A stretch of DNA of 64,000 nucleotides from Alloprevotella sp. GTDB taxonomy: Bacteria; Bacteroidota; Bacteroidia; Bacteroidales; Bacteroidaceae. The translations under genes were made by a program, and so were the position numbers. The DNA lies in the NCBI GenBank assembly GCA_017471505.1, contig JAFUTC010000004.1, positions 287,957 to 351,956 of the forward strand, read 5' to 3'. The notes under the pieces were generated by a model, which saw only the letters and a list, made by a program, of their open reading frames with translations, was not told the origin of the DNA and made no database searches. Shown here piece after piece: positions 23,152 through 60,183 of this stretch. The first letter of the stretch is position 1; every line of letters begins with the position of its first letter.

Positions 23152-23250
23152 ATTGCATTATGGAATCTGTAAATTCCATAATGCAATTCGCAGATTGTAT
23201 AATGCAATTTCGCGGTCGCATAATGCAATTTATCAATTCCATTATGCAAT
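23152..23250. repeat. 21-bp phased palindrome array B, five units
   Basis: Units of 15 bp start at 23152, 23173, 23194, 23215 and 23236, a constant 21-bp step with 6-bp spacers. Left halves are ATTGCAT, ATTCCAT, ATTGTAT or GTCGCAT; most right halves are ATGCAAT. This is the only array between convergent genes. Confidence 0.93.
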
Positions 23251-23309
23251 TTTTCAGCCTCACTATGAGCCACTTACAGCGCACTCACAAATCGGCCTGA
23301 ACGCATAGG

Positions 23310-23843
23310 CTACTCGGCCGTAGGAGTGAAGCTCTCGTAGGTTCCGTCGTCGAAGAACACGCGAATCTCCTTGATTTTAGCCTTCGCAGCCACCTGCACG
23401 CCCACAGGCTCGACCGCTGCGCCCACACCGCTATAGGACGGCGCTGCAACCTTATGCACCGGCTCCGCAACCGTCGCAAACGGCTCGGCAGAATCGAGCG
23501 AGAACAGCATATCGTCGGCAGGCTCGGCCATTCCGCCTACGCCCTCGTCCGACACGATAGGGGAGCCGGCCGAAAAGTCATTTTCGCCCGCATTTGCCCC
23601 GTCATTTTCCACAGTCACGCCACTTCCGTCGACATACATCTCACCCTCGCCAAACTGCAACCAGTACAGACTGATTTGCGGAAAACTCTTGTGAATTGCC
23701 TGCACGTGTTTGAAAGTTGGGTTCGTGCGTCCGGTAAAAATTGTTGACAATGAACTCGGCGAAATTCCCAGTCGCCCGGCAAAGTCGCGCTGCGATAAAT
23801 TGAGTTGCTCCATGAGAAAATGGATGCGGTCTTTGAGTTCCAT
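23310..23843 (-). CDS. XRE-type helix-turn-helix transcriptional regulator
   Basis: 177 residues from the ATG at 23843 (MELKDRIHFLMEQL). That start is preferred because it begins directly with the first helix of the HTH domain; the upstream ATG at 23888 adds 15 unrelated residues. Residues about 1-62 are an HTH_3/XRE fold with the SQRDFAGRLGISPSSLSTI recognition region. A long, low-complexity acidic/alanine linker follows, then a basic-to-beta C-terminal tail (IKEIRVFFDDGTYESF) that resembles a conserved element of Bacteroidales HTH proteins. Target genes are unknown. It faces a long AT-rich upstream gap where an autoregulatory site could lie. Confidence 0.82.
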   Translation of the reverse strand: MELKDRIHFLMEQLNLSQRDFAGRLGISPSSLSTIFTGRTNPTFKHVQAIHKSFPQISLYWLQFGEGEMYVDGSGVTVENDGANAGENDFSAGSPIVSDEGVGGMAEPADDMLFSLDSAEPFATVAEPVHKVAAPSYSGVGAAVEPVGVQVAAKAKIKEIRVFFDDGTYESFTPTAE

Positions 23844-25143
23844 ATCGATAGGTTTTTTCAATGAATAATCTGGTCGGTCCGGCCACAAAATCCGAGTGAT
23901 AAAACTGAAAATTTCAGCAGATTTTCAGCCCATACCCCCGATTTTTTGCACAATTGCAAAGTTAAAACGCAAAAATGAAAACTCAAAACCAAACAAAAAC
24001 TAATTTCATTAAAATGCAAAATAATATTCCACGCAAAACAAAAAGTCAAATTCACAATTCACACTTTCAAACCGAACCGTACCATACGCATCTGGAGCGA
24101 TTTCATAATGCAACATCTCGAAACTACTATAGTCAAATTTTGTAATTTGTTGGTTTATTTTCCCCTAATACGCAAATCGGACGATACTTTAATACAATAT
24201 CCCACTTTCCTTATAGAATCGGCGCAAACCATTACAGTTTCGCTTCACTACTTTATATTATACGAACTGATTTTAAACATTTTACGCGATTTTATTACAA
24301 AACGATAAAAATTGATATTCAAATCTGCACGCATAAACAGCCTATCCAGCGGCACCATATTCAAGTTTGTAAATCTACATATTGAAATTTACATTTTCAT
24401 AAAAACTCACAGGGATTGCTTCTGTGTTTTGCCTGATTTTGATGATGAAAATGTAAAATTAAATTGTGTTTTGTGTTTACAAAATAAGATTCCGCCCCAC
24501 CCTGACAAGCCATTTTTGAAACACTCCCGTCGTTTCGCCCAGTTGTACGAAGAAACAATTTTGCGCGAGCCACAAAAACCAAAATTCCACGCATATTGTT
24601 CATTTTCAGCATTATAGAACGAAAATAATGGATATAGAAATTCGTCGGAAAAATTGAGAAAATGCCCATTTTGCTACTTAAGAGATAGCAAAACAATGGT
24701 TTTACGATGGTTTGGAACCACCTTTCCCGGTTGAAAACAGTGAAATTCACATTTTCAACCCCTATTTTCATCTACCAGAATGAGCAGTCGGGCTCCCCCA
24801 TACTCCCCCACTCCGGCAGTCTGCTGTTCTGCCTGGACTACCCCCCGAAATCTACCTGCACAGATGGGGTATGAACCGACTGAATAAGGTAGGAAAAATT
24901 TTGACAACTTTTTGAGCAGTTTTCCATACCGCTTTTCTCCCACCCCACTATGGCAGTCGCGACAACAGTATGGGCGCAGCCGGAGATGAGCGGGAAAATT
25001 TTTCGTATCCTACTCCACCCTGTCCACCCGAGTATAAAAATTTCCGGTTGAACGTGAATTTCCGTCCAACCGGTAAGAAAAAATTTTCGGCGTATATTTC
25101 AGAAAAAATTTTTCAGTCGGAAATACGCGAAAATTTCAGGGGT
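23844..25143. other. 1.3-kb AT-rich intergenic region
   Basis: No supported gene: the short frames at 24108-24308 and 24312-24617 have no family features. Much of it is strongly AT-rich against a background near 60% GC. Between about 24895 and 25140 an A-run/T-run motif (AAAATTTTTC and variants) recurs about six times. A solitary TTTCATAATGC lies at 24101. It could hold regulatory sites for the HTH gene, a small RNA or degraded mobile DNA. I found no tmRNA, RNase P or SRP RNA signature in it. Confidence 0.5.
24101..24111. repeat. solitary TTTCATAATGC unit
   Basis: This 11-mer is the core of the phased palindrome with TTTC instead of ATTG on its left. The identical word also occurs at 6040, 27059 and 39931, always between genes. 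Confidence 0.5.
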
Positions 25144-26184
25144 CTAATCGTGCAGGATAAAGAAGTAGAGTTCCTTCATAATGTCGCCGGCCGATGCGCC
25201 GCCACTCTCGACGCCTTTGCTCTTTGCGTCGGCACGCCGTATAGCCGAAAGAATCTGCATCACCTTGCGGGCCGAATATCTCTGCATGGCCGGAATCAGC
25301 GACATCTTGGCAGAATACGGTGCCATACCGGTGAACGCCGAAAGGCCTGCGGGAGTCTTGTCGGGGCTATAGTAGGCGAGCATCAGCATAGAGAAGAAGC
25401 CCGACAGGCTGGGCAAAATCTTCTGCGGCGGGTTTGCCTTCGGGTTTTTGTCGAAGTAGTCGGCAATGCGCATAACTTTCTGCACGTTTTTCACGGCCAA
25501 GGCGTCGCGCAGTTCAAAGATGTTGTACTCCTTGCTTATGCCCACGTTGTCGGCCACGATGTTGCGCGTGATGACGTTCGTCTTTCCGGCCAGTGCAATA
25601 AGCAACTTGTCGAGTTCGCCTGCCATGCGGTTCAAATCGAAGCCGATGTGCTCGCAAATCATAGAGACGGCGTCGGCCTCGGCAGATACTCCGCGCTGAC
25701 GCAAATAGGAGATGACGAAGCCGCTCAGTTGGTTGTCGTAGCGAAGTCTGGGCGACTCGAACAGCACTGCCTTCTTCTCGATGGCCCCAGCCACCTTCGT
25801 GCGGCGGTCTATGGTGCCGTGCTTGTAGCACATTATGAGGATGGTGGACGGTTGCGGTTGTTCGAGATAGGTTCCTAAGGCGTCGAGTCCGCCCAACTGT
25901 TGTGCCTCGCGCACTACTACGACCAATCGCTGCGCCCCCATAGGAAAGCCGCGTGCGGTATCGACCACCTGGTTGATATCTGCGTCGGCGCCGAAGAGCG
26001 TGATAAGGTTGAAATCGCGCTCGAAAGGCTCGAGGGCCAGTTCGACAAGTTTGTCGGCCAGCAGGTCGATGTAATAGCTCTCCTCGCCCATCAGAAAATA
26101 GACGGGCTTAAAGTTTCCGGCCTGTGCCTCGGCAACAATTTCGTCGTAGCACTGTTGTGTGGAGACGCTTGCTTTCTTTGCCAT
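25144..26184 (-). CDS. holA: DNA polymerase III subunit delta
   Basis: 346 residues; the delta subunit opens the sliding clamp within the clamp loader. The N-terminal KPVYFLMGEESYYIDLLAD segment is the HolA start block, followed by the degenerate AAA+ domain and a helical C-terminal collar domain (about 215-345). Length and ending (LYFFILHD) match Bacteroidota HolA. It lies 41 nt after amn on the same strand, and the two are probably co-transcribed. Confidence 0.92.
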   Translation of the reverse strand: MAKKASVSTQQCYDEIVAEAQAGNFKPVYFLMGEESYYIDLLADKLVELALEPFERDFNLITLFGADADINQVVDTARGFPMGAQRLVVVVREAQQLGGLDALGTYLEQPQPSTILIMCYKHGTIDRRTKVAGAIEKKAVLFESPRLRYDNQLSGFVISYLRQRGVSAEADAVSMICEHIGFDLNRMAGELDKLLIALAGKTNVITRNIVADNVGISKEYNIFELRDALAVKNVQKVMRIADYFDKNPKANPPQKILPSLSGFFSMLMLAYYSPDKTPAGLSAFTGMAPYSAKMSLIPAMQRYSARKVMQILSAIRRADAKSKGVESGGASAGDIMKELYFFILHD

Positions 26185-26225
26185 CTGGTTGGATAGTTGG
26201 ATGAAACGGTTGGCGTATGTGCCGG

Positions 26226-27002
26226 CTACCAGTCGTACTTCAAATGACGCACGGTACTGCGCTTTCCGATGATTAGCTGCATGGCCTCGATGCCGATGCG
26301 TACGTGTGTCTCGACGAAGTTGGCTGTAATTTTCTTGTCGCTTGCTTCTGTCTTCACGCCCTCGGGTGTCATCGGGTTGTCGGATACGAGCAGCAGCGCG
26401 CCGGTGGGTATGTGGTTGTAGAAACCACAGGTGAACAGCGTGGCAGTCTCCATGTCTACGCCCATGGCACGCGTGTCGCGCAGCAACTGCTTAAAGCGCT
26501 CGTCGTGCTCCCATACGCGGCGGTTGGTGGTGTATATGGTTCCGGTCCAATAGTCTTGGTTGTTGTTTCGGAGGGCGGTAGAAACGGCTCGCTGCAACAT
26601 GAATGCGGGCAGCGAGGGTACTTCTTTGGGGAAATAGTCGTCGCTTGTTCCCTCGCCGCGTATGCCGGCCAGCGGGAGAATATAGTCGCCCAGTCCGGTT
26701 TTCTCTGAGATGCCGCCGCACTTGCCTAAGAAAAGGCACGCCTTGGGCTTGATGGCGCTCAGGAGGTCCATGATAAGTGCTGCATTGGGACTGCCTATGC
26801 CGAAATTGATCATGGTAATATCGTCGTGGGTTACGGCTCTCATGTTGGAGTCGTATTCCGTCGGCTCGGCCCCCGTGAGTTTGCAGAAGATATCAATATA
26901 GTTGTTGAAGTTTGTAAGCAGTATGTGGCTGCCGAAATAGTCGAGCGGCTTGCCGGTATAGCGCTGCAGCCAGTTGCCTACGATTTTTTCGCGGTTTACC
27001 AT
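26226..27002 (-). CDS. amn: AMP nucleosidase
   Basis: 258 residues of the short Bacteroidota AMP nucleosidase type, which splits AMP into adenine and ribose 5-phosphate. It belongs to the nucleoside phosphorylase fold: the FLGKCGGISEKTGLGDYILP block (about 92-111) and AMGVDMETATLF (about 186-197) carry the phosphate- and ribose-binding residues, and SDNPMTPEG follows. It lacks the extra N-terminal domain of the enterobacterial enzyme. First gene of the amn-holA pair, divergent from the HSDR_N-domain gene. Confidence 0.88.
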   Translation of the reverse strand: MVNREKIVGNWLQRYTGKPLDYFGSHILLTNFNNYIDIFCKLTGAEPTEYDSNMRAVTHDDITMINFGIGSPNAALIMDLLSAIKPKACLFLGKCGGISEKTGLGDYILPLAGIRGEGTSDDYFPKEVPSLPAFMLQRAVSTALRNNNQDYWTGTIYTTNRRVWEHDERFKQLLRDTRAMGVDMETATLFTCGFYNHIPTGALLLVSDNPMTPEGVKTEASDKKITANFVETHVRIGIEAMQLIIGKRSTVRHLKYDW

Positions 27003-27058
27003 AAGTTTGTTTAATTTCGCATTGAAGTTCCTCCTCCTGCGCCTATGGGCTGAGGAGA

Positions 27059-27069
27059 TTTCATAATGC
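27059..27069. repeat. solitary TTTCATAATGC unit
   Basis: Identical to the words at 6040, 24101 and 39931. It sits between the divergent amn and HSDR_N-domain genes, 57 nt upstream of the amn start. Confidence 0.5.
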
Positions 27070-27608: not shown

Positions 27609-27625
27609 CGGCATCGGCCTGGCAC

Positions 27626-28618: not shown

Positions 28619-28717
28619 ATTGCATTATGGAATCGGAAAATTGCATAATGGGATTTGGAAATTGCATTATGGAATTTTGAAATTGTATTATGCAATTTTC
28701 GGATTGTATTATGGAAT
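28619..28717. repeat. 21-bp phased palindrome array C, five units
   Basis: Units start at 28619, 28640, 28661, 28682 and 28703, exactly 21 bp apart. The array lies between the divergent lipoprotein and NIF3-like genes and ends 70 bp before the -33 box of the NIF3-like promoter. Confidence 0.94.
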
Positions 28718-28828: not shown

Positions 28829-29611
28829 ATGAAAATTAAGGAAGTAGTCGCTACCCTTGAAAGGTTCGCGCCTCTGCCGCTGCAGGAGAGCTACGATAAT
28901 GCCGGCTTGCAGATTGGATTAACAGAAGCGGAAAGTTCAGGGGTATTATTGTGTCTGGACGTCACGGAAGACGTCCTGGAGGAAGCACTGTCGCTGGGGT
29001 GCAATACGGTGGTGAGCCATCACCCTCTGCTTTTCCGTGCGCTGCGCCGTCTGACCGACGAGTCGATGGTGGAACGCTGCGTGCGGATGGCTGTAAAGAA
29101 CGACTTGTCTGTTTACTCGGCGCACACGAACCTTGACAACGCGCGCGGAGGAGTAAACTTCCAGATGGCCGACCTATTGGGCCTGGAGGATGTGGACTTT
29201 CTCCGTCCGGCAGAAGGCATGGACGGCGGCAGCGGCATAGTGGGCCGCCTGGCCGAGCCTATGCCGATGGAGCGTTTTCTGAGGGAGGTGCAGGACACGT
29301 TTGGCGTGGACTGCCTGTTCCATAATCGCACGAGCAAGTCGCAGATTGCCTCGGTGGCATACTGCGGCGGTGCGGGCGCGTTTCTGCTTGGCGACGCGCT
29401 GCGCATGGGCGTTGACGCGTTCCTGACGGGCGAGATGGGCTACCACGACTATTTCGGCGTGGAGGACGACATATTGATTGGCGTGCTCGGACACTACCAG
29501 AGCGAGCGCTACACGATGAGCCTGCTGCGCCGCATACTGTCGGAGGCGCATCCCACGCTCCCCATCTACGAGACTACGGTGAACACGAATCCGATAAAAT
29601 ATCTTTATTAA
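28829..29611 (+). CDS. NIF3/YbgI-like dinuclear metal centre protein
   Basis: 260 residues, the short form of the NIF3 (GTP cyclohydrolase I type 2-like) family, which forms a toroidal hexamer with two metals per subunit; its physiological role is unsettled. Metal-site motifs are visible: VVSHHPLLF (His64, His65 region), SAHTNLDNA and, near the C-terminus, GHYQSER. The ATG at 28829 is used because an in-frame TTG at 28817 lies inside the -7 box of the promoter. The next gene starts 10 nt after the stop, as is usual for the NIF3 / zinc-ribbon pair. Confidence 0.88.
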   Translation: MKIKEVVATLERFAPLPLQESYDNAGLQIGLTEAESSGVLLCLDVTEDVLEEALSLGCNTVVSHHPLLFRALRRLTDESMVERCVRMAVKNDLSVYSAHTNLDNARGGVNFQMADLLGLEDVDFLRPAEGMDGGSGIVGRLAEPMPMERFLREVQDTFGVDCLFHNRTSKSQIASVAYCGGAGAFLLGDALRMGVDAFLTGEMGYHDYFGVEDDILIGVLGHYQSERYTMSLLRRILSEAHPTLPIYETTVNTNPIKYLY

Positions 29612-29621
29612 ACACACTATT

Positions 29622-36022: not shown

Positions 36023-36116
36023 TTAAAAATCGTTAAATCGGTGCGCAAAATGCTATAAAACACTAAAAATCAGAAATTATGTCGGTCGGCGAGGCCAATG
36101 TTTGAGGTCGGTGCGG

Positions 36117-36124
36117 TATATTTG
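36117..36124 (+). promoter_or_regulatory. -7 box of the DUF4369-like lipoprotein gene
   Basis: TATATTTG matches TAnnTTTG and would give a start near 36131. It therefore supports the ATG at 36155 over an upstream ATG at 36098. No proper -33 box was found at 20 nt. Confidence 0.5.
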
Positions 36125-36154
36125 CACCAACTCGTAACCCACAGAAGGAAGAAC

Positions 36155-36880
36155 ATGAAACGGTGGCGCCAGTTCACATCCCTATGCAGCCTGCTCATCC
36201 TGTGCGGGTGCGCCGGCCAGTATAATATAGCCGGCAACAGCAGCGTGCCCGTGCTCGACGGCAACATGCTCTACCTGACCGTGAAGACCGACGCCGACGG
36301 CAAGACCGATATCGACTCGTGCAAGGTGGTACACGGGTCGTTCCGCTTCAACGGCGACATCGACAGCGTCTGCATCGCCCGCGTCTACATGGGCAACGAA
36401 AGCATCCTGCCCGTAGTGCTCGAGAACGGCAACCTTACGATTACCGTCGACAACATCAGCCAGCGCGTCAGCGGCAGTCCGCTCAACGAGCGCCTCTACG
36501 ACTTCTACAAGAAGCAGAACCGCCTCGAGACCAAGATGTGGCGCCTCCAGCAGCGTGCCATACGCCAGGTGCGCGAAGGCCATAGCATGGCCGACGTCGA
36601 GAAGAAGTTTACGAAGCAGGCCATGAAGATACAGGCCGACGCCGAGGAACTCGAAACCGAATTCCTTAAGAAAAACGCCGGCAACGTGCTCGGGCCTGGC
36701 TACTTCCAAATGGTGTGCGAGCAATATGCCGTTCCGACCGTCACCGACCGCATGGCCCGCATGCTCGAACAACTGCCGCCCGAATTTTTCGAACACCCCT
36801 TCGTGCGCTCCTACCTGAGGCGTGCCTCCTACAATCCGTTCAGCTATCCGGTGCGCATACCGCAGAAGACCGCAAAATAA
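36155..36880 (+). CDS. DUF4369-type lipoprotein
   Basis: 241 residues from ATG 36155. A lipoprotein signal peptide ends in LILCGC. The following beta-rich segment (about 25-115: DGNMLYLTVKTDADG through ILPVVLENGNLTITVD) resembles DUF4369, a Bacteroidota envelope domain often found at the N-terminus of thioredoxin-like proteins. The rest is a charged helical region (about 120-185) and a short C-terminal domain; no thioredoxin CxxC is present. Monocistronic by its own -7 box, with a phased palindrome array 54 nt after the stop. Function unknown. Confidence 0.75.
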   Translation: MKRWRQFTSLCSLLILCGCAGQYNIAGNSSVPVLDGNMLYLTVKTDADGKTDIDSCKVVHGSFRFNGDIDSVCIARVYMGNESILPVVLENGNLTITVDNISQRVSGSPLNERLYDFYKKQNRLETKMWRLQQRAIRQVREGHSMADVEKKFTKQAMKIQADAEELETEFLKKNAGNVLGPGYFQMVCEQYAVPTVTDRMARMLEQLPPEFFEHPFVRSYLRRASYNPFSYPVRIPQKTAK

Positions 36881-36934: not shown

Positions 36935-37033
36935 ATTGCATAATACAATCCGAAAATTGCATAATGGAATTTTGAAATTGCATAATACAATCTGCAAATT
37001 GCATAATTGAATTTTTCGATTCCATTATGCAAT
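36935..37033. repeat. 21-bp phased palindrome array D, five units
   Basis: Units start at 36935, 36956, 36977, 36998 and 37019, exactly 21 bp apart. The array ends 57 bp before the -33 box of the coaX promoter. Confidence 0.94.
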
Positions 37034-37148: not shown

Positions 37149-37874
37149 ATGGGCACCCACCTACTGATAGACATAGGCAACAGCCGCGCCAAGGCAAGCA
37201 TCCGCCGCGGCGAAGAATGGCTTGCCTCGACAAGCTGGACCGACAACGACGCCAAAGCCATCGGCCAACTGATTGCCGCGTACCATCCGACGGCCTGCGC
37301 GCTGTCGAACGTGGGCCGACCGCGACCCGAACTGGAGCGTGCGTTGCGGCAGGCCGACGTGTCCGTGCTTCGGGTGGACGGCACTACGCCGTCGCCCGTC
37401 AGGCAGGCAGCCGCGTCGCTCGGAGCCGACCAACTGGCCGCCATCGTAGGCGCCATGGCGCTGAAGCCCGACACCGACCTGCTCGTGATAGACTCGGGCA
37501 CGTGCCTGACCTATGACTTCGTGGCCGCCGACGGACGCCTGCTCGGAGTGAACATTTCACCGGGCCTGTATCTGCGGCTCCAGGCCATGCACGACCATAC
37601 GGCGCTGCTGCCGCTGGTCTCTCCCGACGGAGAAGTGCCCGCCATGGGCTACGACACCGAGACGGCCATGCGCTCCGGCGCGGTGCTGGGCATACGCCAC
37701 GAGATAGAGGGCGCCATTGCCCAGTCCCTCCGCCACAACCCACGGATGCACGTGTTCCTGACAGGCGGCGACCGCTTCTCGTTCAACGACCTGCCGGCCG
37801 ACCGCATAAGCATCGAGCCGCGCCTTGTAGAGATTGGTCTCGACGCCCTGCTCGCCTATAACCACCTCACATAA
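37149..37874 (+). CDS. coaX: type III pantothenate kinase
   Basis: 241 residues from ATG 37149. CoaX phosphorylates pantothenate, the first step of CoA synthesis, and belongs to the ASKHA fold. Visible: phosphate-1 motif LLIDIGNSRAK (about 5-15), substrate-site GADQLAAIVGA, and phosphate-2 DSGTCLTYDF with the catalytic Asp. The upstream in-frame ATG at 37038 is rejected because the promoter lies between it and the chosen start. The OMP gene follows after 31 nt. Phosphopantetheine made through CoA would also feed the NRPS island. Confidence 0.93.
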   Translation: MGTHLLIDIGNSRAKASIRRGEEWLASTSWTDNDAKAIGQLIAAYHPTACALSNVGRPRPELERALRQADVSVLRVDGTTPSPVRQAAASLGADQLAAIVGAMALKPDTDLLVIDSGTCLTYDFVAADGRLLGVNISPGLYLRLQAMHDHTALLPLVSPDGEVPAMGYDTETAMRSGAVLGIRHEIEGAIAQSLRHNPRMHVFLTGGDRFSFNDLPADRISIEPRLVEIGLDALLAYNHLT

Positions 37875-47221: not shown

Positions 47222-48037
47222 TTAGAGCAGGTCCTCGTCGGGACGCGGTGTGTGCGGTTTCTCCTCGGCGGCATCCGCCTCGGGCAGGCCGCCTTCGGGG
47301 GCGAAGTCGTAGTCGTCATAGTCGTCGGCCGCCGTAGCAGGCTCCACGGCGTCGGCAGCGGTGGCGGCCGCCTCGTCGGAACCGGACTCTATGCCGGTCT
47401 CTGCCTCGCGCTGCGCGCGCTCAATGGCTTCCTCGTCGGTCTCGCGCATCTTCGGCTCGGGAACAGCGTCCATCTCTTCGTCGTCGCACTCGGCCAGCGC
47501 CTTTGCCTGGGCGCGGCGGAACGCATGTATCTGCCATGCCGACCAAAGTTCGAGCAGTGCATAGGCCACACAGCCCGCGCCGAGGATGCGAGGCAACAGG
47601 TCGGCCACGAAACCGGGCTGTATGAGCGCCAGCAGGCCGGCCGCGAACGTCACTACGGGCAACACGTACGAAGGTCCGCTCACGCGAATGCCTTCCACGT
47701 GCATCTGGTAGCGGATGAACAACTGAAACGCGCCGGCCACTATGAGCAGCGCGCCCAGGATATAGACGATGGCGTCGACAAAGGGCATCGGGCGCACAAG
47801 CAATACGATGCCGAACGCACCCGTAGCCAGGCCGAGCGCACCCATAAGCACGGACTCTACCGAGCCCTTCTCCTTGCGGAAAACACTAAGGATGGCCACC
47901 AGTCCAAGCAGCAAGAGCAGGCCGCCGCCTATCTGGGCCATGAGTCGGACCGCATCGTGCGGAATGGCGATTAGCACAATGCCTGCCGCCAATATGACAA
48001 GCGCACGCAGGCACATGGATTTTACCGAGTTGGTCAT
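47222..48037 (-). CDS. HdeD-like DUF308 membrane protein with acidic tail
   Basis: 271 residues. Six predicted transmembrane helices in the first 175 residues, with glycine-rich turns (GGGLLLLLGLVAIL; LGALLIVAGAFQLF) typical of the HdeD/DUF308 family, whose role (acid stress in E. coli) is poorly defined. The last 90 residues are cytoplasmic, highly acidic and Ala/Glu/Asp-rich, an unusual addition for this family. CAAACTTA at 48072-48079 gives a -7 box (TAAGTTTG) on the minus strand. Lies upstream of the ArnT-like gene. Confidence 0.78.
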   Translation of the reverse strand: MTNSVKSMCLRALVILAAGIVLIAIPHDAVRLMAQIGGGLLLLLGLVAILSVFRKEKGSVESVLMGALGLATGAFGIVLLVRPMPFVDAIVYILGALLIVAGAFQLFIRYQMHVEGIRVSGPSYVLPVVTFAAGLLALIQPGFVADLLPRILGAGCVAYALLELWSAWQIHAFRRAQAKALAECDDEEMDAVPEPKMRETDEEAIERAQREAETGIESGSDEAAATAADAVEPATAADDYDDYDFAPEGGLPEADAAEEKPHTPRPDEDLL

Positions 48038-48156: not shown

Positions 48157-48255
48157 ATTGCATAATCCGACAGAAAAATCGCATAATGCAATTCGCCGAT
48201 TGCATAATACAATTTAGAAATTCCATTATGCAATTTCGCGGCTCCATAATGCAAT
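48157..48255. repeat. 21-bp phased palindrome array E, five units
   Basis: Units start at 48157, 48178, 48199, 48220 and 48241, exactly 21 bp apart. The array lies upstream of the DUF308 gene (minus strand) at about 50-55 bp from where its -33 box should be. Confidence 0.93.
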
Positions 48256-48337: not shown

Positions 48338-49927
48338 TTAGAAGTGCAGGTCGATGCCGATGCCTATCACGTCGTTCGTGCGGTCGAAGCGCTCCTTGCC
48401 GGCGAGCTGTCCCTGCATGACGCGATTGTCCACGTCGGCCACGATGGCCTGGTACCTATCGGGGGCAATCAGTTGCTCCTGGGCAGCGAAGCCCGCGATA
48501 TTCTTCATGGTCTGGCCGAGTCCGTAGTACTCGCTGTGGACCTTGTTCTTCGAATAGTAGAACGTCTTGAAGTACGACAGGTTGATACCTACGTGCTCGC
48601 TGACCTTATATTTCACGCCCAGTCCCAAAGAATAGCTGCTGCTGCTGAAACTTAGGTCGCTGAGATACTCGCCTCCCTTTCCGAAGCCGTAGTTGGTCAA
48701 TTGGCCGCCGAGGCTTGCGGTGAGTTTGTCGGTAATGTCGTACTCGACGCCAGCCAGCACTTCCCACGTATTGCTCTTGAGTTTCTTCTGCTTATTCTCG
48801 TACTGGTGCGCCTGCTTGTCGAAATAGTAGTGCATACTGGCATTCACGCGCAGACGAGGGGTGAATTCGTAGCCCACACCCACGCCCAGGAATCCAGGCA
48901 TATCGCCCTCGACCACCTGACCGTCGACGAACTCGGCCACATTGTTCAGCAACTGTGCCTGCTGGACAGTCGTGGTGGAAGAATTCTTCGGATGGAGCCG
49001 AGTCTTAAACTCGTAGCGTGCACCCACGTTCCATTTGCCGTGGTGCCAGTGCAGTCCGATGACAGGTGCCACGCCCCAGGCCTGCTGGTCGGCGTTCACC
49101 TCTACCTGGCTTACCATGTCGCGCATCTTCTCAAGGGTGAGCGCCTGCTGGCTCATGCCCATGTTAGCAAGCATAGCGGCCGACGCGTCGAGCAACTGGC
49201 CAGCCTCCACTTGCGTACCGGCAGGAATCACTTGCCCGTTGACCGGAAGCGGCTGGGCCGTGAAAAGCTGGATGTCCTTTACGTAGCCGTAGTAGTTGCT
49301 ACTGGCGCGAACCAGTCGCACGCCGACGCTGACGCTCAACTCGGGCGTAATCTTGTAGCCGACGCCCACCTGCGCTCCGAAGTAGAACTGCTTGCCGCGC
49401 ATGTAGGTGTTCATGCCGTAGCGGTTGGTCACAAGGTCGCCCATGCCCATGGCGTTGGTCAGCGCATTAAGCGCGGTGGGCATCACCGATACCACACTCT
49501 CGAACGAGCCAAGGCCGTTGTCGAACGTGCACTTGCCGCCGCCACCAATCACACCGAAATGGAACGAGCCGAACCACTTGTCGCCCACGTAGGCAAAGTC
49601 GAGAGCCGGGATGATAGGCGCCGTGGCCTTTCCCTTATACTTTTTCGTCATCTGCCCGTTGTTGTCCATGCCGTAGGCAAAGGCACCGAACGTCGTCTCT
49701 ACGGTACGCGTCTGAAACGCACTCTGATTGTTGAACGCAAAATGGAAACCTTTTTTCAAGAAGCCAATTCCGGCCGGATTGTAGTAGGCTCCCTCTATGG
49801 AGATGTATGCCTCTTGCGCCGGCATGCGCAGAAACGAAGCCGAATGATTGGTGTTTGTCAGTATGCCACCGGCATAACCACTTGCGCCACAAAGCATCAG
49901 CGCAGAAGCAAGGATAATTCTTTTCAT
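48338..49927 (-). CDS. FadL/OmpP1/TodX-family outer-membrane transporter
   Basis: 529 residues. Signal peptide (about 1-18, cut after GYAG). The mature N-terminus GGILTNTNHSASFLRMPAQEAYISIEGAYYNPAG is the FadL-family hatch region with its NPAG motif. A 14-strand barrel is expected after it, with long-chain fatty acid or hydrophobic-compound uptake as the family role. The ligand cannot be read. It has a consensus promoter and its own terminator, so it is a single-gene transcript. Confidence 0.87.
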   Translation of the reverse strand: MKRIILASALMLCGASGYAGGILTNTNHSASFLRMPAQEAYISIEGAYYNPAGIGFLKKGFHFAFNNQSAFQTRTVETTFGAFAYGMDNNGQMTKKYKGKATAPIIPALDFAYVGDKWFGSFHFGVIGGGGKCTFDNGLGSFESVVSVMPTALNALTNAMGMGDLVTNRYGMNTYMRGKQFYFGAQVGVGYKITPELSVSVGVRLVRASSNYYGYVKDIQLFTAQPLPVNGQVIPAGTQVEAGQLLDASAAMLANMGMSQQALTLEKMRDMVSQVEVNADQQAWGVAPVIGLHWHHGKWNVGARYEFKTRLHPKNSSTTTVQQAQLLNNVAEFVDGQVVEGDMPGFLGVGVGYEFTPRLRVNASMHYYFDKQAHQYENKQKKLKSNTWEVLAGVEYDITDKLTASLGGQLTNYGFGKGGEYLSDLSFSSSSYSLGLGVKYKVSEHVGINLSYFKTFYYSKNKVHSEYYGLGQTMKNIAGFAAQEQLIAPDRYQAIVADVDNRVMQGQLAGKERFDRTNDVIGIGIDLHF

Positions 49928-52471: not shown

Positions 52472-54700
52472 CTACAGGTTTTCCCTGAAATAGTCGGTGA
52501 TGCGCTTAAAGAGGTGGCGCCGGGTATTACCGCCGTTGATGAAATGATTGCGGTTGGTGTAGACTTGCATATCGAACTGTTTGCCGGCCTGCACCAGTGC
52601 CTCGCTATATTCGGCGCAGTTGCGGAAATGCACGTTGTCGTCGGCCAGGCCGTGCACCAGCAGCAGGCTGCCACTGAGTTGCGCGGCGCGGGAAATGGGA
52701 TTGAGGTCGTAGCCCTTGTTCTCCTGCGGCGTGCGCATATAGCGCTCGGTATATACCGTATCGTAGTATTTCCAGTTAGTAGGCGCTGCGACGGCTACAC
52801 CGCACTTGAACACGGGGCGTCCCTCGCTCATCGACATGAGCGTATTGAATCCGCCGTAGCTCCAGCCCCATATTCCGATGCGACTGTTGTCGACGTAGGG
52901 AAGACTGCCCAGATAGATTGCAGCCTCGACTTGGTCCTTCGACTCCTTATCGCCCAGGTTGAGATAGGTACACTTCTCGAAATCGGTACCGCGATAGCCG
53001 GTTCCGCGACCATCGACGCAGGCCACCAGATAGCCTTGCTGGGCCATGTAACTCTCGAACACGCCTCCGCCATAGAAGCCCAGGCTCCACGCATCGGCCA
53101 CCTCTTGCGAACCGGGGCCGGAATACTGGTAGAGGATTATGGGGTATTTCTGCGCGGGGTCGAAGTCGGCCGGCTTCACCATCCAGCCGTTCAGTTGCAC
53201 GCCTTCCGTCGTGGTGAAGGTGAAGAATTCCTTCGTGCCTCCCTCTTCGGCCACGCGGCGCGACAGTTCGGCGTTGTCCACGAGTGGCTTGAGCACGCGT
53301 CCGGCTGCGTCGCACAGGCTGACAACGGGCGCGGTGGCGGCGTTGCTGTAGGTGTGGACGAAATAGCGATAGTTGCGCGAGAAGAGGGCGCTATGGGTGC
53401 CGGGCTCGGCCGTGAGTTTGCGGGCTCCGCGTCGGTCGGCCACGTAGACGGCCCTACGCAGCGGACCGCCGTCAGTAGTGGCGTAGTAGCACTTGTCGGT
53501 CTTGCGGTCGTAGCCATAGAAGGCGGTGACTTCTTCCTGCCCGCTGGTGAGCGGCCGTATAAGCGTGCCGTCGAGCCGGTAGAGGTAGAGTTGCGAATGG
53601 CGGGTGCGCTCGGACTGCATCACGAAGCAGTCGTCGAAGAAGGCAAGGTTGGCATAGGCTTCCTCCTTTATATATTCGGGCTCGCTCTCGGTGAGCATCA
53701 GCGCCACGGTGCCGTCGGCCGGGTTGGCCGTGTAGATTTTCATCAGGTTCTGGTGGCGGTTGAGCGTGACTATGGCCATCTTCGAGGGGTCGGGGGTGGC
53801 CATGAGGCGGGGTATGTAGCCGTCGGTGTCGACGGGCACTTGCAGTTGGCAGGTGGCTCCGGTCGGCAGGTTGTATGCCTTCACCGTGACGGCCGAATTG
53901 ACTTGTCCGGGCACGGGATACTTGTAGTCCATTGAGCCGGGGTAGGTGTCGTTGGCCTCGATAGTGGGCCGCGCTCCCTTGTACATGGCAATGTGGTAGA
54001 GAGGTACGCGGCTCTCGTCGTAGCGTATCCAGCAGAGCGCGTTGCCGTCGGCACTGAAGCAGAAACTCTGGTTGGTGGAGAATTCCTCCTCGTAGACCCA
54101 GTCGGGAATGCCGTTGATTATTTTTCCGGGACAGCCGTCGTCGGTCAGCCTGCGGGGTTGGCGGTCGCCGGCAAGGTCGACCAGGTAGAGGTCGTTATGG
54201 CGTGCGAAGGCCACCTTCGTACCGTCGGGTGAGAAGGTGGGTGCCTGCTCGCCTCCCTCGGCGGTCAGGGCGAAGAACTCCTTGGTCTGCACGTCGTAGA
54301 CATAGTAGTCGGCTGTGAACGAGCGGCGGTAGATGCGCTGCGTGTTGGTCTGGAGCAGCATGAGGCGCTCGTCGGCCGAGAGCACGTAGCCGTCGATGCG
54401 GCTGAGCGTGGCGGGGCCTTTCGCCTCGGAGGCGTCGAAGAGGACGGCCGTGCGTTCGCCCGTGCGAAACGAGTTGCGCTCCACCAGCCTGCCGCCCTGG
54501 CTGAGTTGCGTATAGGTGTGACCGTCGGCAGCGGGGCGCAGGCCGTAGATGCCTCGGGCGCCGAAGCGTCCGTCAACGATGTCGTCGAGGTTCCAAGTGG
54601 TCTGGGCTTGCAGGCCGGTAGCGGCCAGCGACAGCATAAGCAGGGTGCCGAAGAGTCGGCCGATGTGTCGGTGTGTCATAAGCAAAATGGTTTTCCGCAT
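52472..54700 (-). CDS. dipeptidyl peptidase IV (S9B serine peptidase)
   Basis: 742 residues with an N-terminal signal peptide (an alternative ATG at 54679 gives a shorter one, cut near GLQAQ). An eight-blade beta-propeller (about 35-480) contains WVYEEEF, whose glutamates bind the substrate amino terminus in DPP-IV. The alpha/beta-hydrolase domain has GWSYGG with Ser614 as nucleophile and HGLADDNVHF with the catalytic Asp region; the catalytic His follows near residue 725. It releases X-Pro/X-Ala dipeptides in the periplasm or on the surface. Upstream lie array F and the divergent thioesterase gene. Confidence 0.93.
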   Translation of the reverse strand: MRKTILLMTHRHIGRLFGTLLMLSLAATGLQAQTTWNLDDIVDGRFGARGIYGLRPAADGHTYTQLSQGGRLVERNSFRTGERTAVLFDASEAKGPATLSRIDGYVLSADERLMLLQTNTQRIYRRSFTADYYVYDVQTKEFFALTAEGGEQAPTFSPDGTKVAFARHNDLYLVDLAGDRQPRRLTDDGCPGKIINGIPDWVYEEEFSTNQSFCFSADGNALCWIRYDESRVPLYHIAMYKGARPTIEANDTYPGSMDYKYPVPGQVNSAVTVKAYNLPTGATCQLQVPVDTDGYIPRLMATPDPSKMAIVTLNRHQNLMKIYTANPADGTVALMLTESEPEYIKEEAYANLAFFDDCFVMQSERTRHSQLYLYRLDGTLIRPLTSGQEEVTAFYGYDRKTDKCYYATTDGGPLRRAVYVADRRGARKLTAEPGTHSALFSRNYRYFVHTYSNAATAPVVSLCDAAGRVLKPLVDNAELSRRVAEEGGTKEFFTFTTTEGVQLNGWMVKPADFDPAQKYPIILYQYSGPGSQEVADAWSLGFYGGGVFESYMAQQGYLVACVDGRGTGYRGTDFEKCTYLNLGDKESKDQVEAAIYLGSLPYVDNSRIGIWGWSYGGFNTLMSMSEGRPVFKCGVAVAAPTNWKYYDTVYTERYMRTPQENKGYDLNPISRAAQLSGSLLLVHGLADDNVHFRNCAEYSEALVQAGKQFDMQVYTNRNHFINGGNTRRHLFKRITDYFRENL

Positions 54701-54756: not shown

Positions 54757-54855
54757 ATTGCATTATGGGACGGAAAAATTGCATAATCGGATTTCGAAAT
54801 TGTATTATGGAATTTTGAAATTGCATTATGGAATTTTCGGATTGCATTATGCAAT
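54757..54855. repeat. 21-bp phased palindrome array F, five units
   Basis: Units start at 54757, 54778, 54799, 54820 and 54841, exactly 21 bp apart. It lies between the divergent DPP-IV and thioesterase genes, 75 bp before the -33 box of the latter. Confidence 0.94.
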
Positions 54856-54982: not shown

Positions 54983-55750
54983 ATGGACACAGATAAGACC
55001 GCACGCCTGTCGTTCCGTTTCACCGTCGAGCCCTACACGGAGGACGCCACGGGATGCCTATCGTGGAGCACGCTTGGCAACCAGCTTCTGCGCAGCGCAG
55101 GGCACCACGCGTCGGCAAACGGGTTCGGCTACGACCAACTCATAAGCCACAATCTGGTGTGGGTACTGTCGCGCCTCGTCGTGGTTATGGACGAGCGCCC
55201 GCGCACCGGCCAGTCGTACACCATCACTACGTGGGTGAAGAGTTGCTTCCGCCAATTCACCGAGCGCCTCTTCGAAGTGGCCGACGCCAACGGCCGGCCG
55301 ATGGGCCACGCCTATAGCATCTGGGCCGCCATAGACTACACGACGCGCCAGCCTATCGACCTGGCCGAACTGCCCGACGGCGGCTTTGGCGAGATACTGC
55401 TGCCGTCGCCAGAGTTCCCCATAGCGGGCGCCTCAAGGCTGCGGCTGCGCAACGCCGTGCAGCAAGGCGAGCGCCGCATGGGATTCAGCGACCTCGACAT
55501 AAACGGCCACGTCAATTCGATGCGATACCTCGAACTGTGCCTCGACCTTTTCGATGCCGACTACTATCGCTCCAACCCGCTGCACCGCATCGAACTGCAC
55601 TTTGCCAACGAAACCTACTGCGGCGACCTGCTTAGCGTATGGCACGAGCCAGCCGCCGACCGCCAGCACCTTATCGAAATCAAGAAAGACGGAGCCGTCG
55701 TCGTGCGCGCCTTGCTCGACAGCACCTCCGACAATACCCCAGCCCCATGA
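54983..55750 (+). CDS. acyl-ACP thioesterase
   Basis: 255 residues of the FatA/FatB-like hotdog thioesterase family found in Bacteroidota, which releases fatty acids from ACP. Two hotdog repeats: the first (about 1-145) with the SWSTLGNQLLRSAGHHA block, the second with the active-site segment DINGHVNSMRYLE (Asn/His pair, about 173-185) and a later Glu. The ATG at 54983 is preferred to an in-frame TTG at 54977. The stop overlaps the next start by 4 nt. Confidence 0.88.
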   Translation: MDTDKTARLSFRFTVEPYTEDATGCLSWSTLGNQLLRSAGHHASANGFGYDQLISHNLVWVLSRLVVVMDERPRTGQSYTITTWVKSCFRQFTERLFEVADANGRPMGHAYSIWAAIDYTTRQPIDLAELPDGGFGEILLPSPEFPIAGASRLRLRNAVQQGERRMGFSDLDINGHVNSMRYLELCLDLFDADYYRSNPLHRIELHFANETYCGDLLSVWHEPAADRQHLIEIKKDGAVVVRALLDSTSDNTPAP

Positions 55751-56316: not shown

Positions 56317-56343
56317 ACCCCGCTCCCCCTGCCCTGCTGCCCT

Positions 56344-57687
56344 ATGACCACGCCCCGCAACCCACTCCTCGGACTCAAAGCCACCTTCCGCACGCTCGGC
56401 TGCAAACTCAACTTCGCCGAGACCTCGGCACTTGCCGACCGACTGAAGGCAGAAGGCGTCAGCGAAGCGGCTCCCGGCGAGACGGCCGACCTTTGTGTGG
56501 TCAACACCTGCAGTGTTACGGAAACAGCCGATAGTAAGTGCCGCCAAACCATCCGACATATCGTCCGCGAACACCCGTCGGCCTTCGTCGTCGTAATGGG
56601 ATGCTACGCACAACTAAAGCCCGACGAAGTGGCCCGACTGGAGGGCGTGGACCTCGTAGTAGGCACCGAGCAGAAAGCACGCATCATCGACCTCGTGAAG
56701 CAAGGCCTGCTGAAGCGCCAGACTATGGACGACGGCCACAACCTGCACGAAGCCGTGGCCACCCCTATGCGCGACATCCGCACCTTCGTGCCAAGCTGCT
56801 CGCGCGGCAACCGCACGCGCTATTTCCTTAAGGTGCAGGACGGCTGCAACTACTTCTGCACCTACTGCACCATCCCCGCCGCCCGCGGCCGTAGCCGAAA
56901 CGGCTCCATCGCTATGCTGGCCGACCAGGCAAGGCGTGCCGCCGACGCAGGCGCAAAAGAAATCGTGCTGACCGGCGTGAATATCGGCGACTACGGCCGT
57001 TCTACCGGCGAAGACCTCCTTTCGCTGCTCCGCGAACTGGACACCGTCGAGGGAATTGAACGCTACCGCATCTCGTCAATAGAGCCCAATCTGCTCACCG
57101 AACCGATTATCGAGTTCTGCGCACAGTCGCGCGCGTTCATGCCCCACTTCCACATCCCGCTGCAATGCGGCAACGACGAGGTGCTACGCCTCATGCGGCG
57201 CCGCTACACTACCGAACTGTTCGCCAGCCGCGTCGAACGAATCCACGCGCTTATGCCCGACGCATTTATCGGGGTGGACGTCATCGTCGGCATGCGCGGA
57301 GAGACCGACAGCCTGTTCGAGCAGGCCTATGCCTTTATCAAGGGGCTCGACGTGAGCCAGTTGCACGTGTTCAACTACTCCGAACGGCCCGGCACAAAGG
57401 CGTTGCAGATTCCTCACAAAGTGTCGCCGGCCGAAAGGCAAAGCCGCAGTCGCCGCCTCATAGAACTGTCGGAGCGCAAGCGCCTGGCGTTCTACCGCCG
57501 GCATATCGGCCAGACGCGCCCCGTGCTCTGGGAGCAGTCGGCCATAGGCGCGCCGATGCACGGCTTTACCGACAACTACATCCGCATAGAGTTGCCCGAG
57601 GCACGCACCGACCTCGACAACCAGATATCTATGGTGCGGCTCGGCAGCCTTACGCCCGACCAACAATCGCTTATCGCCGCAGAATGA
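56344..57687 (+). CDS. mtaB: tRNA t6A37 methylthiotransferase MtaB
   Basis: 447 residues. This radical-SAM methylthiotransferase converts t6A to ms2t6A at tRNA position 37. N-terminal UPF0004 domain with three cysteines (LGCKLN, VVNTCSVTE, VMGCYAQ) for the second cluster; radical SAM CxxxCxxC at Cys168/172/175 (CNYFCTYC); C-terminal TRAM domain (about 385-447). The LGCKLN start rather than LGCxxN with MiaB-type features favours MtaB. Its stop overlaps the next start. Confidence 0.93.
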   Translation: MTTPRNPLLGLKATFRTLGCKLNFAETSALADRLKAEGVSEAAPGETADLCVVNTCSVTETADSKCRQTIRHIVREHPSAFVVVMGCYAQLKPDEVARLEGVDLVVGTEQKARIIDLVKQGLLKRQTMDDGHNLHEAVATPMRDIRTFVPSCSRGNRTRYFLKVQDGCNYFCTYCTIPAARGRSRNGSIAMLADQARRAADAGAKEIVLTGVNIGDYGRSTGEDLLSLLRELDTVEGIERYRISSIEPNLLTEPIIEFCAQSRAFMPHFHIPLQCGNDEVLRLMRRRYTTELFASRVERIHALMPDAFIGVDVIVGMRGETDSLFEQAYAFIKGLDVSQLHVFNYSERPGTKALQIPHKVSPAERQSRSRRLIELSERKRLAFYRRHIGQTRPVLWEQSAIGAPMHGFTDNYIRIELPEARTDLDNQISMVRLGSLTPDQQSLIAAE

Positions 57688-58706
57688 AACGTATTGCCAT
57701 CGTCATACTCAACTGGAACGGCAGCGCCATGCTCCGTCGTTTTCTGCCCAATGTCCTTGCCAACTCGCTGCAGGACGCAGACGTCTACGTGGCCGACAAT
57801 GCCTCGACCGACGACTCTGTTGCCCTGCTCACGGCCGACTATCCCGACGTGCCGCTCATCCGGCTTGCCGAGAACTACGGCTTTGCTGAGGGCTACAATC
57901 AGGCTCTGAAAGACCTGCCGCACGAACTTTTCCTGCTGCTGAACTCGGACGTGGAAACGACGCCTAACTGGCTCGGCCCGCTGCTGGCTTACATGGACGC
58001 GCACCCCGAGGTGGCCGCCGTGCAGCCTAAGATTCGCTCCGAGCGCCATAGGGAACAGTTTGAATATGCGGGGGCCGCCGGCGGCTATCTCGACCTTTTC
58101 GGCTACCCCTACTGTCGGGGGCGCGCATTCGATACGGTCGAGGACGACAAGGGCCAGTATGACGAGCCACAGGCCTGTTTCTGGGCCACGGGCGCCGCAC
58201 TTCTCATCCGGCGCGACGACTATGCCGGCGTGGGCGGCCTTGATGCGCGCTTCTTTGCCCATCAGGAGGAGATAGACCTCTGTTGGCGGCTCCGGTCGCG
58301 CGGTCGCGGCGTGGCGTGCGTGCCTCAGAGCGTGGTGTTCCACGTAGGTGGCGGCACGCTGGGACCTGGCAATCCGCGAAAGACCTATCTGAACTTCCGC
58401 AACAACCTGCTTCTGCTCTACAAGAACCTTCCGGCCGACCGGCTGCACCGGGTCATGCGCTGGCGCTTCGTGTTGGACTACGTGGCAGCCCTTAAGTTCG
58501 TGCTCACGGGCGAGGCAGGCCACGCCAAGGCCGTATGGTGTGCGCGCCGAGACTACGGCCGCATGCGCAAGGAATTCCTTTCCGACCGCGAAGCCAACTT
58601 GCGTGCCGCCGTGCTTCCGTCCATTCCGGAGCAACGGCCGTGCTCGCTGCTCGCCGCCTACTATCTGCGCGGCCGCAAGACTTTCGACCAAATTTTCCGA
58701 CTATGA
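57684..58706 (+). CDS. GT2 glycosyltransferase (rhamnosyltransferase-like)
   Basis: 340 residues from ATG 57684, overlapping the mtaB stop by 4 nt. GT2 fold: IAIVILNWNGSAMLRRFLP, VADNASTDDSV, LLNSDVETTPNWLGPLL (the DxD metal site region) and AALLIRRDDYAGVGGLDARFFAHQEEIDLCWRL (acceptor-side GGLDxxFF and ED motif). This arrangement is typical of WbbL-like rhamnosyl- and related transferases in cell-surface polysaccharide synthesis. Donor and acceptor are not evident. The longer frame opening at 57165 is only the antisense-like shadow of mtaB. Confidence 0.87.
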   Translation: MKRIAIVILNWNGSAMLRRFLPNVLANSLQDADVYVADNASTDDSVALLTADYPDVPLIRLAENYGFAEGYNQALKDLPHELFLLLNSDVETTPNWLGPLLAYMDAHPEVAAVQPKIRSERHREQFEYAGAAGGYLDLFGYPYCRGRAFDTVEDDKGQYDEPQACFWATGAALLIRRDDYAGVGGLDARFFAHQEEIDLCWRLRSRGRGVACVPQSVVFHVGGGTLGPGNPRKTYLNFRNNLLLLYKNLPADRLHRVMRWRFVLDYVAALKFVLTGEAGHAKAVWCARRDYGRMRKEFLSDREANLRAAVLPSIPEQRPCSLLAAYYLRGRKTFDQIFRL

Positions 58707-59461
58707 CATCTACCGACCATACCGACCAGCCGGCCGAAACCGCTGCCGCAGAGCCGGCTCTCTACCTGATTCCGTGCCAGATATCCGAGGCGCCGCTCGA
58801 CGACGTGCTGCCGCCGCTCAACCGCGCTATCGTGCTCGGCATCCGCCACTTTATTGTCGAGGAAGTGCGTACGGCCCGCCGTTTCCTGAAGCAACTTGAC
58901 CGCTCAATCGATATTGACGCGCTCACGTTCTATCCGATGGGCAAGCATGCCGATGCCTCGCGTTTTTCTGCCTACCTGGAGCCGCTGCGCAAAGGCCAGT
59001 CGGTGGGAGTGATTAGCGAGGCGGGCTGTCCGGCTGTAGCCGACCCCGGCGCCGTCGTAGTAGGCATTGCGCAGCGAGAAGGGCTGAAGGTGGTGCCACT
59101 CGTAGGGCCGTCGTCCATCCTGCTATGCCTGATGGCCAGCGGCTTCAACGGACAGAGTTTTTCGTTTGTAGGCTACCTGCCCATCGATAGCGCCGAGCGC
59201 CAGAAGCGGCTCCGCCAACTCGAAAGCCGCTCGGCGCAGGAGCAGCAGACGCAGTTGTTCATCGAGACGCCGTTCCGCAACGCGCGGCTCTTTGGCGACC
59301 TGCTCCATGCTCTTAGGCCCGACACGCGCCTGTGCATTGCCAGCGGCCTTACCGGCCAGAAAGCGCTGGTGCGCACTATGACCATGCGCCAGTGGAAGCA
59401 GCAGGGGCTGCCCGACATAGGCAAGACGCCCACGGTGTTTGCCATCTACGCCGGCAAGTAA
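58703..59461 (+). CDS. RsmI-like SAM-dependent methyltransferase (16S rRNA C1402 type)
   Basis: 252 residues from ATG 58703 (4-nt overlap with the GT2 gene). Tetrapyrrole-methylase fold: LYLIPCQISEAPLDDVLPP start, the VGVISEAGCPAVADPGAVVV block (about 105-124) matching RsmI's SDAGTPxxxDPG, and VPLVGPSSILLCLMASGFNGQSFSFVGYLP. RsmI 2'-O-methylates C1402 of 16S rRNA. This sequence belongs to the shorter Bacteroidota subgroup, and some residues differ (IPCQISEAPLDD instead of TPIGNLxD), so a different substrate is possible. Confidence 0.82.
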   Translation: MTSTDHTDQPAETAAAEPALYLIPCQISEAPLDDVLPPLNRAIVLGIRHFIVEEVRTARRFLKQLDRSIDIDALTFYPMGKHADASRFSAYLEPLRKGQSVGVISEAGCPAVADPGAVVVGIAQREGLKVVPLVGPSSILLCLMASGFNGQSFSFVGYLPIDSAERQKRLRQLESRSAQEQQTQLFIETPFRNARLFGDLLHALRPDTRLCIASGLTGQKALVRTMTMRQWKQQGLPDIGKTPTVFAIYAGK

Positions 59462-59497
59462 GCCAAACCGATTCACAATCCATACATACACGACACG

Positions 59498-60067
59498 ATG
59501 AAGAAGAACATTGGAAACTACAATGCTGCCTTTCCCACGCCCATAGTGGTGGTGGGCGCCATGACCGACGGGCGGCCCAACTGGTTTGAGGTGGCCTGGT
59601 GCGGCATAGGCGACCGCGACCTCGTCACGCTGAGCGTGGAGGAGAGCCACGAGACCTGCCGCGGCATCTTTGCCGACAAACGGCTGAGCATAAGCCTGTG
59701 CGACGAGGCCCTGCTGCCGCGGGCCGACTACGTGGGCATTGTCAGCGGAAAGAAGGTGGACAAGAGCGGAGTGTTCGCTTGGACGCCCGGCGAACTCGGT
59801 GCCCCCATCCCCGACGACGCACCCGTGAGCATGGAGTGCGAACTTGTCGACACCTACAAGCAACACGGCATGTGCCTGCTCATTTGCCGCGTCCGAAACA
59901 CCTATGTCGACGAGCAATACCTCGACGAGAAGCAGAAGGTGGACTATTCGCGCCTCAAGCCCGTGCTTTTCGAGCCGCGCTTCCGCTATCTGCTCACCGG
60001 CAAGGACCTCGGCCCGTGCATCGAACCCGGTCGCGCACTGCAGAAGCACTTGACTGAAAACCAATAG
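59498..60067 (+). CDS. flavin reductase-like FMN-binding protein
   Basis: 189 residues of the flavin reductase / DIM6-NTAB split-barrel family. Typical start MKKNIGNYNAAFPTPIVVVGA, followed by NWFEVAWCGIGDRDLVTLSVEESHETCRGI (FMN phosphate-binding region). Family members reduce FMN or use bound FMN; the Bacteroidota form with this length is often found as a single gene and its electron partner is not known. 36 nt after the RsmI-like gene; array G follows the stop after 17 nt. Confidence 0.85.
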   Translation: MKKNIGNYNAAFPTPIVVVGAMTDGRPNWFEVAWCGIGDRDLVTLSVEESHETCRGIFADKRLSISLCDEALLPRADYVGIVSGKKVDKSGVFAWTPGELGAPIPDDAPVSMECELVDTYKQHGMCLLICRVRNTYVDEQYLDEKQKVDYSRLKPVLFEPRFRYLLTGKDLGPCIEPGRALQKHLTENQ

Positions 60068-60084
60068 CATAGGCCAACCCCGAA

Positions 60085-60183
60085 ATGGCATAATTGAATC
60101 TGAAAATTGCATAATGCCATTTCGAAATTCCATAATGCAATTCTGCGATTGCATAATTGCATTTTTTCGTCCCATAATTGAAT
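60085..60183. repeat. 21-bp phased palindrome array G, five units
   Basis: Units start at 60085, 60106, 60127, 60148 and 60169, exactly 21 bp apart. The array fills nearly the whole spacer before mfd and ends 16 nt before its start codon, the same placement as array A before the phosphatase gene. Confidence 0.93.

Follow-up and report, generated by a model that had tools for sequence, protein, structure and literature searches.

The sites of Noc, SlmA and MatP are single palindromes spread over the chromosome, have a stable consensus and are probably read by dimers. To our knowledge, little is known of chromosome organisation in Bacteroidota. A described intergenic repeat is PINSR of Prevotella intermedia and Prevotella nigrescens, 188 bp long, with 177 copies in one strain and 184 in another; as described, it has no coding sequence and no terminal inverted repeats, and it is missing from most strain-specific mobile regions (PMC4755523). 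Here, we describe arrays of a short, helically phased palindrome in a window of 64,000 nucleotides (the whole stretch of DNA that was analysed) from Alloprevotella sp., contig JAFUTC010000004.1, and their counterparts elsewhere in the genome and in related genomes. Four results are new: the even spacing of the arrays, a second palindrome in the same register, relatives whose arrays keep this geometry but use other palindromes, and arrays at the promoters of some genes for an HU-like protein, HU-HIG.

Phased palindromes in the window

Seven intergenic spaces of the window hold what we call type I arrays, in which 15-bp palindromic units (7+1+7; ATTGCATWATGCAAT) follow one another at an exact 21-bp step. 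Their existence, proposed by an earlier sequence-only reading, is real: 33 matches to ATTSCATWATGSAAT with at most two mismatches occur in the window, compared with a mean of 0.29 and a largest count of 3 in 100 dinucleotide shuffles. Six arrays do have the five units assigned to them by that reading, although some of these units are degenerate (e.g., 23215, 48157 and 60169), and the array at 6039, rightly called degenerate, has three clear units after a weak first one. The arrays (unstranded) and their neighbouring genes (strand in parentheses) are as follows.

6039..6116, no strand: degenerate type I array, units 6039 (weak), 6060, 6081 and 6102, fifth absent; between 5221-5985 (+), Kdo/WaaP kinase-like, and 6132-8303 (+)
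23152..23250, no strand: type I array of five units; lies in a convergent gap, flanked by 21116-23092 (+), HHH_3, and 23310-23861 (-), HTH_3
28619..28717, no strand: type I array, five units; upstream of 28829-29611 (+), NIF3 family
36935..37033, no strand: type I array of five units; flanked by 36098-36880 (+), DUF4369, and 37149-37874 (+), type III pantothenate kinase
48157..48255, no strand: type I array of five units with weak outer units; flanked by 47222-48037 (-), DUF308, and 48338-49927 (-), outer membrane beta-barrel
54757..54855, no strand: type I array of five units; lies in a divergent gap, flanked by 52472-54700 (-), DPP IV-like peptidase, and 54983-55750 (+), acyl-ACP thioesterase
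60085..60183, no strand: type I array of five units with weak outer units; flanked by 59498-60067 (+), flavin reductase, and 60200-63676 (+), Mfd/TRCF

The fine structure was resolved on C1, the 352-kb contig of the window's own assembly (G000; 1.44 Mb, 77% complete; G-numbers denote genomes of the genus and L-numbers the stretches or loci scanned). There, five units per array are the rule: by a unit score, units 0 to 4 average 14.5, 20.4, 21.2, 19.9 and 15.9, and units -2, -1, 5, 6 and 7 score between -3.3 and -4.0. Written with its flanks, the unit is AAAATTGCATWATGCAATTTT. The weaker outer units (0 and 4) are degenerate in their inner halves, which gives the complete array two-fold symmetry around its central unit. 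Faint units continue in register for about four steps outward (left 10, 8, 8 and 4, right 13, 8, 9 and 4 of 39 arrays; means over all offsets, 1.1 and 1.3). The 6-bp spacers, previously thought to vary freely, are patterned, with A enriched on the left and T on the right. Outside the units, the arrays of G000 diverge widely (mean column identity 65%). Positions 4 and 12 of the unit could pair in 20 units and could not in 33, and this lack of half-site co-variation favours a protein dimer over a hairpin.

Separately, ATAC/GTAT variants were seen to be commoner in the half of a unit that faces the array centre (unit 1, right half 12 of 39 and left half 1; unit 3, left half 8 and right half 3). 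At 10044-17222, the window also has a single open reading frame, some 2,400 codons long, and at 63783-64000 it has 2.1 tandem copies, 100% identical, of a 105-bp unit; this repeat adjoins a tRNA-Arg gene at the contig end and is perhaps an assembly end effect.

Number, spacing and a second motif across the genome

The genome-wide excess of phased units sought after the first reading was found: G000 carries 449 type I units per strand (the pattern is palindromic, so that both strands show the same sites), compared with 1 for a reversed-pattern control, and lag autocorrelation of C1 gave 34 places with at least 48 of 84 matches at lag 21 and 0 or 1 at each other lag from 16 to 29. Dividing these units by the ratio observed on C1 (141 units in 33 type I arrays) yields approximately 105 type I arrays, which, together with some 15 type II arrays described below, bring the total to about 120 in this incomplete assembly rather than the "hundreds" first anticipated. 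The arrays lie almost exclusively between genes, regardless of orientation. With gene calls from our own script, 44 G000 arrays were scored and 43 counted (one, in stretch L081, had no called neighbour), of which 14 lie in ++, 11 in --, 9 in convergent and 8 in divergent contexts, with 1 called inside a gene. Pfam names were sought for 20 proteins in all, two of them HU-HIG; those of the genes next to the window arrays and to three arrays in gaps shared with a second genome, G002, are varied and include NIF3, pantothenate kinase, DPP IV, Mfd, DnaX, LeuRS and ribosomal S16.

The arrays are evenly spaced, which is a new finding. On C1, the 33 type I arrays lie 4.3 to 20.4 kb apart with a coefficient of variation (CV) of 0.43 and no interval below 4 kb, compared with a CV of 0.88-0.92 and 9.3-9.7 such intervals when an equal number of gaps is chosen at random. 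Including three type II arrays, the 36 arrays have a CV of 0.418 (0.89-0.92 at random; 0 of 20,000 draws) and again no interval below 4 kb, where about 11 were expected. These counts omit two weak candidates, at 64766 and 183531; with both restored, the CV is 0.465 and 2 short intervals stand against 12.5 expected. In G002, three contigs gave CVs of 0.49, 0.46 and 0.51 (P 0.0018, 0.0074 and 0.12).

A second palindrome shares this register. The type II unit, TTTCAAGSCTTGAAA in G000 and TTTCACASTGTGAAA in G002, occurs mostly in threes at a 21-bp step, with 27 adjacent pairs per strand in G000, 80 in G002 and none in the control. Units of both types are mixed in one register at C1:172028 of G000 and C15:146655 of G002, and the three type II arrays on C1 occupy the gaps between type I arrays that rank 1, 2 and 12 of 32 by size; the two unit types look interchangeable on one lattice. 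Comparison of the two genomes points the same way. Among 79 neighbour pairs common to both, an array is present in G000 in 10, in G002 in 4 and in both in 3 (P 0.006), leaving seven gaps with an array in G000 only and one with an array in G002 only; in all three gaps with arrays in both, the array is of type I in G000 and of type II in G002. Some of the common gaps differ in size by about one array. Among the few neighbour pairs shared with more distant species, no common array position was seen. Several G002 type I arrays (C15, C5 and C10) also have common flanking sequence such as TTAGGATAATTTAAC, like parts of longer repeats.

Array geometry in relatives and the candidate protein HU-HIG

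The geometry is common to relatives, and the sequence usually is not. The type I profile gave 84 hits in G000 and 69 in G002 (both strands counted), with weak hits in only 3 (7, 7 and 1) of the other 56 genus genomes, and a two-unit type I pattern had no match in the named genomes, a set that perhaps lacks the source genome and its near relatives. Yet a strict scan of 2.06 Mb of genus sequence found step 21 at 67 places, compared with 0-3 at every other step from 16 to 33, and 8 of 18 stretches were positive; G004 had no such place in 398 kb. Motif-free scans recovered step-21 arrays of AATAAGG with GTCAGCTGAC in between in G061, and further palindrome motifs in G008, G064, G017, G016, G015, G062, G032, G080, G073 and G005, of which small counts in the relaxed scan (e.g., 1 in G005 and 2 in G073) are weak. 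The scans left out G080:C1, G032:C1 and G062:C1 (under 1 kb), and G081:C1 and G019:C1 were scanned for direct lags only. Two arrays of G000 (C1:73679 and C1:103930) contain variant units in pairs, their halves reading ATTCCCTTAT and ATAAGGGAAT, which resemble the G061 motif and may be intermediates.

In the wider Bacteroidaceae, cultured Bacteroides faecis among them, the step is more often 22 bp. Across 80 named tsf loci of Bacteroidaceae and their kin, step 22 occurred at 14 places in 12 loci (for example, B. faecis MAJ27, Prevotella conceptionensis and Candidatus Bacteroides merdigallinarum) and step 21 at 4, one of which (L261) is a simple 7-bp repeat kept in the count; other steps gave 0 or 1. 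Intergenic tandem repeats of 6-8 bp units that mimic a 21-bp step were also noted in Prevotella relatives (L225, L257, L261 and others). A 22-bp TTTCA pattern gave paired counts of 49/52 in B. faecis, 15/17 in B. xylanisolvens and 1/1 in P. conceptionensis (control 0), with no match in B. fragilis, P. vulgatus or P. plebeius. The expectation that related Bacteroidales would carry the motif thus holds for its 21/22-bp geometry and mostly fails for its sequence; a single conserved motif does not mark the element, as relatives use other palindromes. This pattern suggests a species-to-species change of recognition code within a chromosome-organising system.

HU proteins are expanded in Bacteroidetes, and HU-HIG was examined for this reason. 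A match to PF18291 was present in 16 of 16 genus genomes searched, and HU-HIG scored 59.2 bits in G000 and 59.4 bits in G002 (cut-off 26.2); the three matches in array-free G004 comprise the ordinary HU part only. G080 stands out with 30 PF18291 matches, compared with 3 to 12 in the other 15 genomes. The HU-HIG proteins of G000 and G002 are 48% identical (53% over 57 amino acids of the tail), and their tails have TAWREL in common and differ immediately before it, which is in line with a common outer half-site and an altered core, although two sequences prove nothing. A literature search by the name HU-HIG found no paper.

Arrays were found at the HU-HIG promoter in 4 of the 8 genomes checked. 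In G000, a type II array lies 143 bp before the HU match, directly upstream of a TATCTTTG box, and in G002 an array carrying that genome's own type II core lies 146 bp before it. In G008 and G064, the HU-HIG gene has a 22-bp-step array, the type of which occurs at 8 places in the former genome and 12 in the latter; one of the HU-HIG genes of G064 was examined, and its array type was absent from the other PF18291 matches listed. The HU-HIG slices of G000, G008 and G064 scored 1.61-1.67, compared with at most 0.98 for control slices (13 ArgR and 4 ParB loci), the ArgR slices having shorter upstream DNA. As a background, the genes with a type II array no more than 300 bp upstream number 4 of 362 in G000, HU-HIG among them, and 13 of 650 in G002; for any step-21 array, the numbers are 45 of 362 and 22 of 650, respectively. 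HU-HIG is the likely binder of type II arrays and the best candidate for these and similar arrays; the window's own arrays are type I.

Other binders were tried and rejected. A ParB paralog (ParB/parS or Noc) does not fit, since ParB matched in 54 of 58 genomes, exactly once in 50, and not in G000, G002, G014 or G017. ArgR was found in 13 of 16 genomes, and of 10 sequences compared (G000, G080 and G073 left out), 8 had an identical recognition stretch, TQATLSRDL, despite differing array motifs. Grouping 2001 predicted proteins into paralog clusters did not point to a binder. The PM2 motif of B. thetaiotaomicron, in the part of its description available, is a -10/-30 promoter motif and differs from the arrays.

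A proposed lattice of binding sites and its rivals

We read the arrays, with evenly balanced confidence, as a lattice of sites at which dimeric DNA-binding proteins would exert a chromosome-wide function. The suggestion of genome-wide, helically phased sites for a dimeric protein made by the sequence-only reading still appears to fit best, given the absence of half-site co-variation, the occupation of all four junction types and the even spacing. One dimer of a sequence-specific protein would bind each 15-bp palindrome, and the 21-bp step (22 bp in relatives) would stack adjacent dimers on one helix face, producing a two-fold symmetric complex about 105 bp long. Such platforms would be kept between genes approximately every 10 kb irrespective of the direction of the neighbouring genes, which makes a chromosome-wide role the most likely one, for example nucleoid anchoring or division into domains of about 10 kb. 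The type II binder would be HU-HIG, an HU-fold protein with a tail that may be winged-helix-like, and may control its own gene through the promoter array. From species to species, the recognition sequence changes and the geometry is retained, as though the protein and its sites were co-evolving.

Several observations weigh against this reading or against the part of HU-HIG in it. Even spacing was not significant in G061 (CV 0.77, P 0.19), where short intervals are nonetheless scarcer (1 compared with 6.0 expected, P 0.004). G081 and G007 possess HU-HIG, and scans of 80 kb and 20 kb of their sequence, respectively, revealed no recognisable array. PF18291 also hits ordinary HU (14-genome control), the winged-helix match of the G000 tail (PF22168, 22.5 bits) falls under the Pfam cut-off of 27, and no Pfam domain was named in the G002 tail. 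The HU-HIG slices of G061, G062, G015 and G005 showed no clear array, the scores of G062 (1.11) and G015 (1.04) being above the 95% null of 0.96 and not above the null maximum of 1.12. None of the PF18291 matches (26 in B. faecis and 34 in B. xylanisolvens) lay near any of the TTTCA arrays listed, and no HU-HIG tail paralog able to bind type I was found in G000 or G002. Finally, the B. faecis arrays have spacer sequence in common and look like copies.

This last point, together with the flanks shared by some G002 arrays, the common gaps that differ by about an array length and the intergenic location and similar copy number of PINSR as described, would suit a family of dispersed repeats, PINSR- or MITE-like, which invades intergenic gaps, inherits its phasing from a founder, has no architectural role and becomes evenly spaced through recombinational loss of close pairs. 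We consider this the strongest rival and still unlikely: G000 arrays differ widely outside their units, two motifs replace each other on one lattice in common gaps, and descent from a founder copy gives no reason to expect that relatives would have new palindromes with an unchanged step. Neither terminal inverted repeats nor target duplications of the kind left by MITEs or transposons were noticed in the aligned G000/G002 gaps, for which no systematic test was made. Operators or insulators for local transcription control in a large regulon would account for arrays that are intergenic and stand at some HU-HIG promoters; the 9 of 42 intergenic G000 arrays in convergent gaps, where no promoter is expected, the lack of a theme among the named neighbours and an even spacing unexpected of a regulon make this less probable again.

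Even spacing and a species-specific code would equally fit self-marking, in which regular arrays let a defence or uptake system tell the chromosome from foreign DNA; the expanded HU proteins of Bacteroidetes have reportedly been proposed to act against invading DNA, and we rate this idea improbable. Least probable by far are RNA hairpins or intrinsic terminators, to which the T-runs after the palindromes might point, because pairing at positions 4 and 12 is not kept and 8 of 42 arrays are found between divergent genes. The same loss of pairing led us to reject REP/BIME elements; CRISPR was rejected because the units vary and the spacers are 6 bp, compared with identical repeats and unique spacers of 25-40 bp.

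Returning to the lattice of dimer sites, a wider form of it is conceivable, and we hold it to be rather doubtful: a Bacteroidaceae-wide scaffolding of HU-winged-helix proteins and evenly spaced arrays, with fixed geometry (15-bp units, 21/22-bp step, about 10 kb) and rewritten recognition sequence, in which several codes share one lattice and each binder controls itself through an array in its own code. The arrays offer a concrete, testable DNA side of chromosome organisation in Bacteroidota, with HU-HIG, a multi-copy family present in cultured Bacteroides too, as the candidate protein. Constant geometry with changing sequence would represent genome-wide protein-DNA co-evolution and a natural experiment on change in DNA-binding specificity.

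The earlier view that no described element matches is uncertain. No paper on 21/22-bp phased palindrome arrays was found in the literature searched (including the available parts of PMC5771137 and PMC7366714), and the nearest find, PINSR, may be a described relative. Set beside the arrays by its description only, PINSR is likewise intergenic with a similar copy number, and differs in being described as a single 188-bp repeat, palindromic 22-bp phasing not being reported in the part available (PMC4755523). Among better-known systems, REP/BIME elements are also intergenic multi-copy palindromes, whereas the arrays have a fixed 21-bp step and no conservation of pairing, and occupy convergent and divergent gaps alike. 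The ARG boxes of ArgR and plasmid iterons similarly have in-phase palindromes or repeats at intervals of about 21 bp; unlike them, the arrays occur at about 105 places in a genome, and the recognition stretch of ArgR is constant where array motifs differ. Mycobacteriophage stoperators are dispersed intergenic repressor sites of group-specific sequence, but are phage-borne, single and asymmetric and form no array. The sites of Noc, SlmA and MatP resemble the arrays as many dispersed short palindromes; here, in contrast, about five palindromes stand together at a fixed step, and their consensus is specific to the species.

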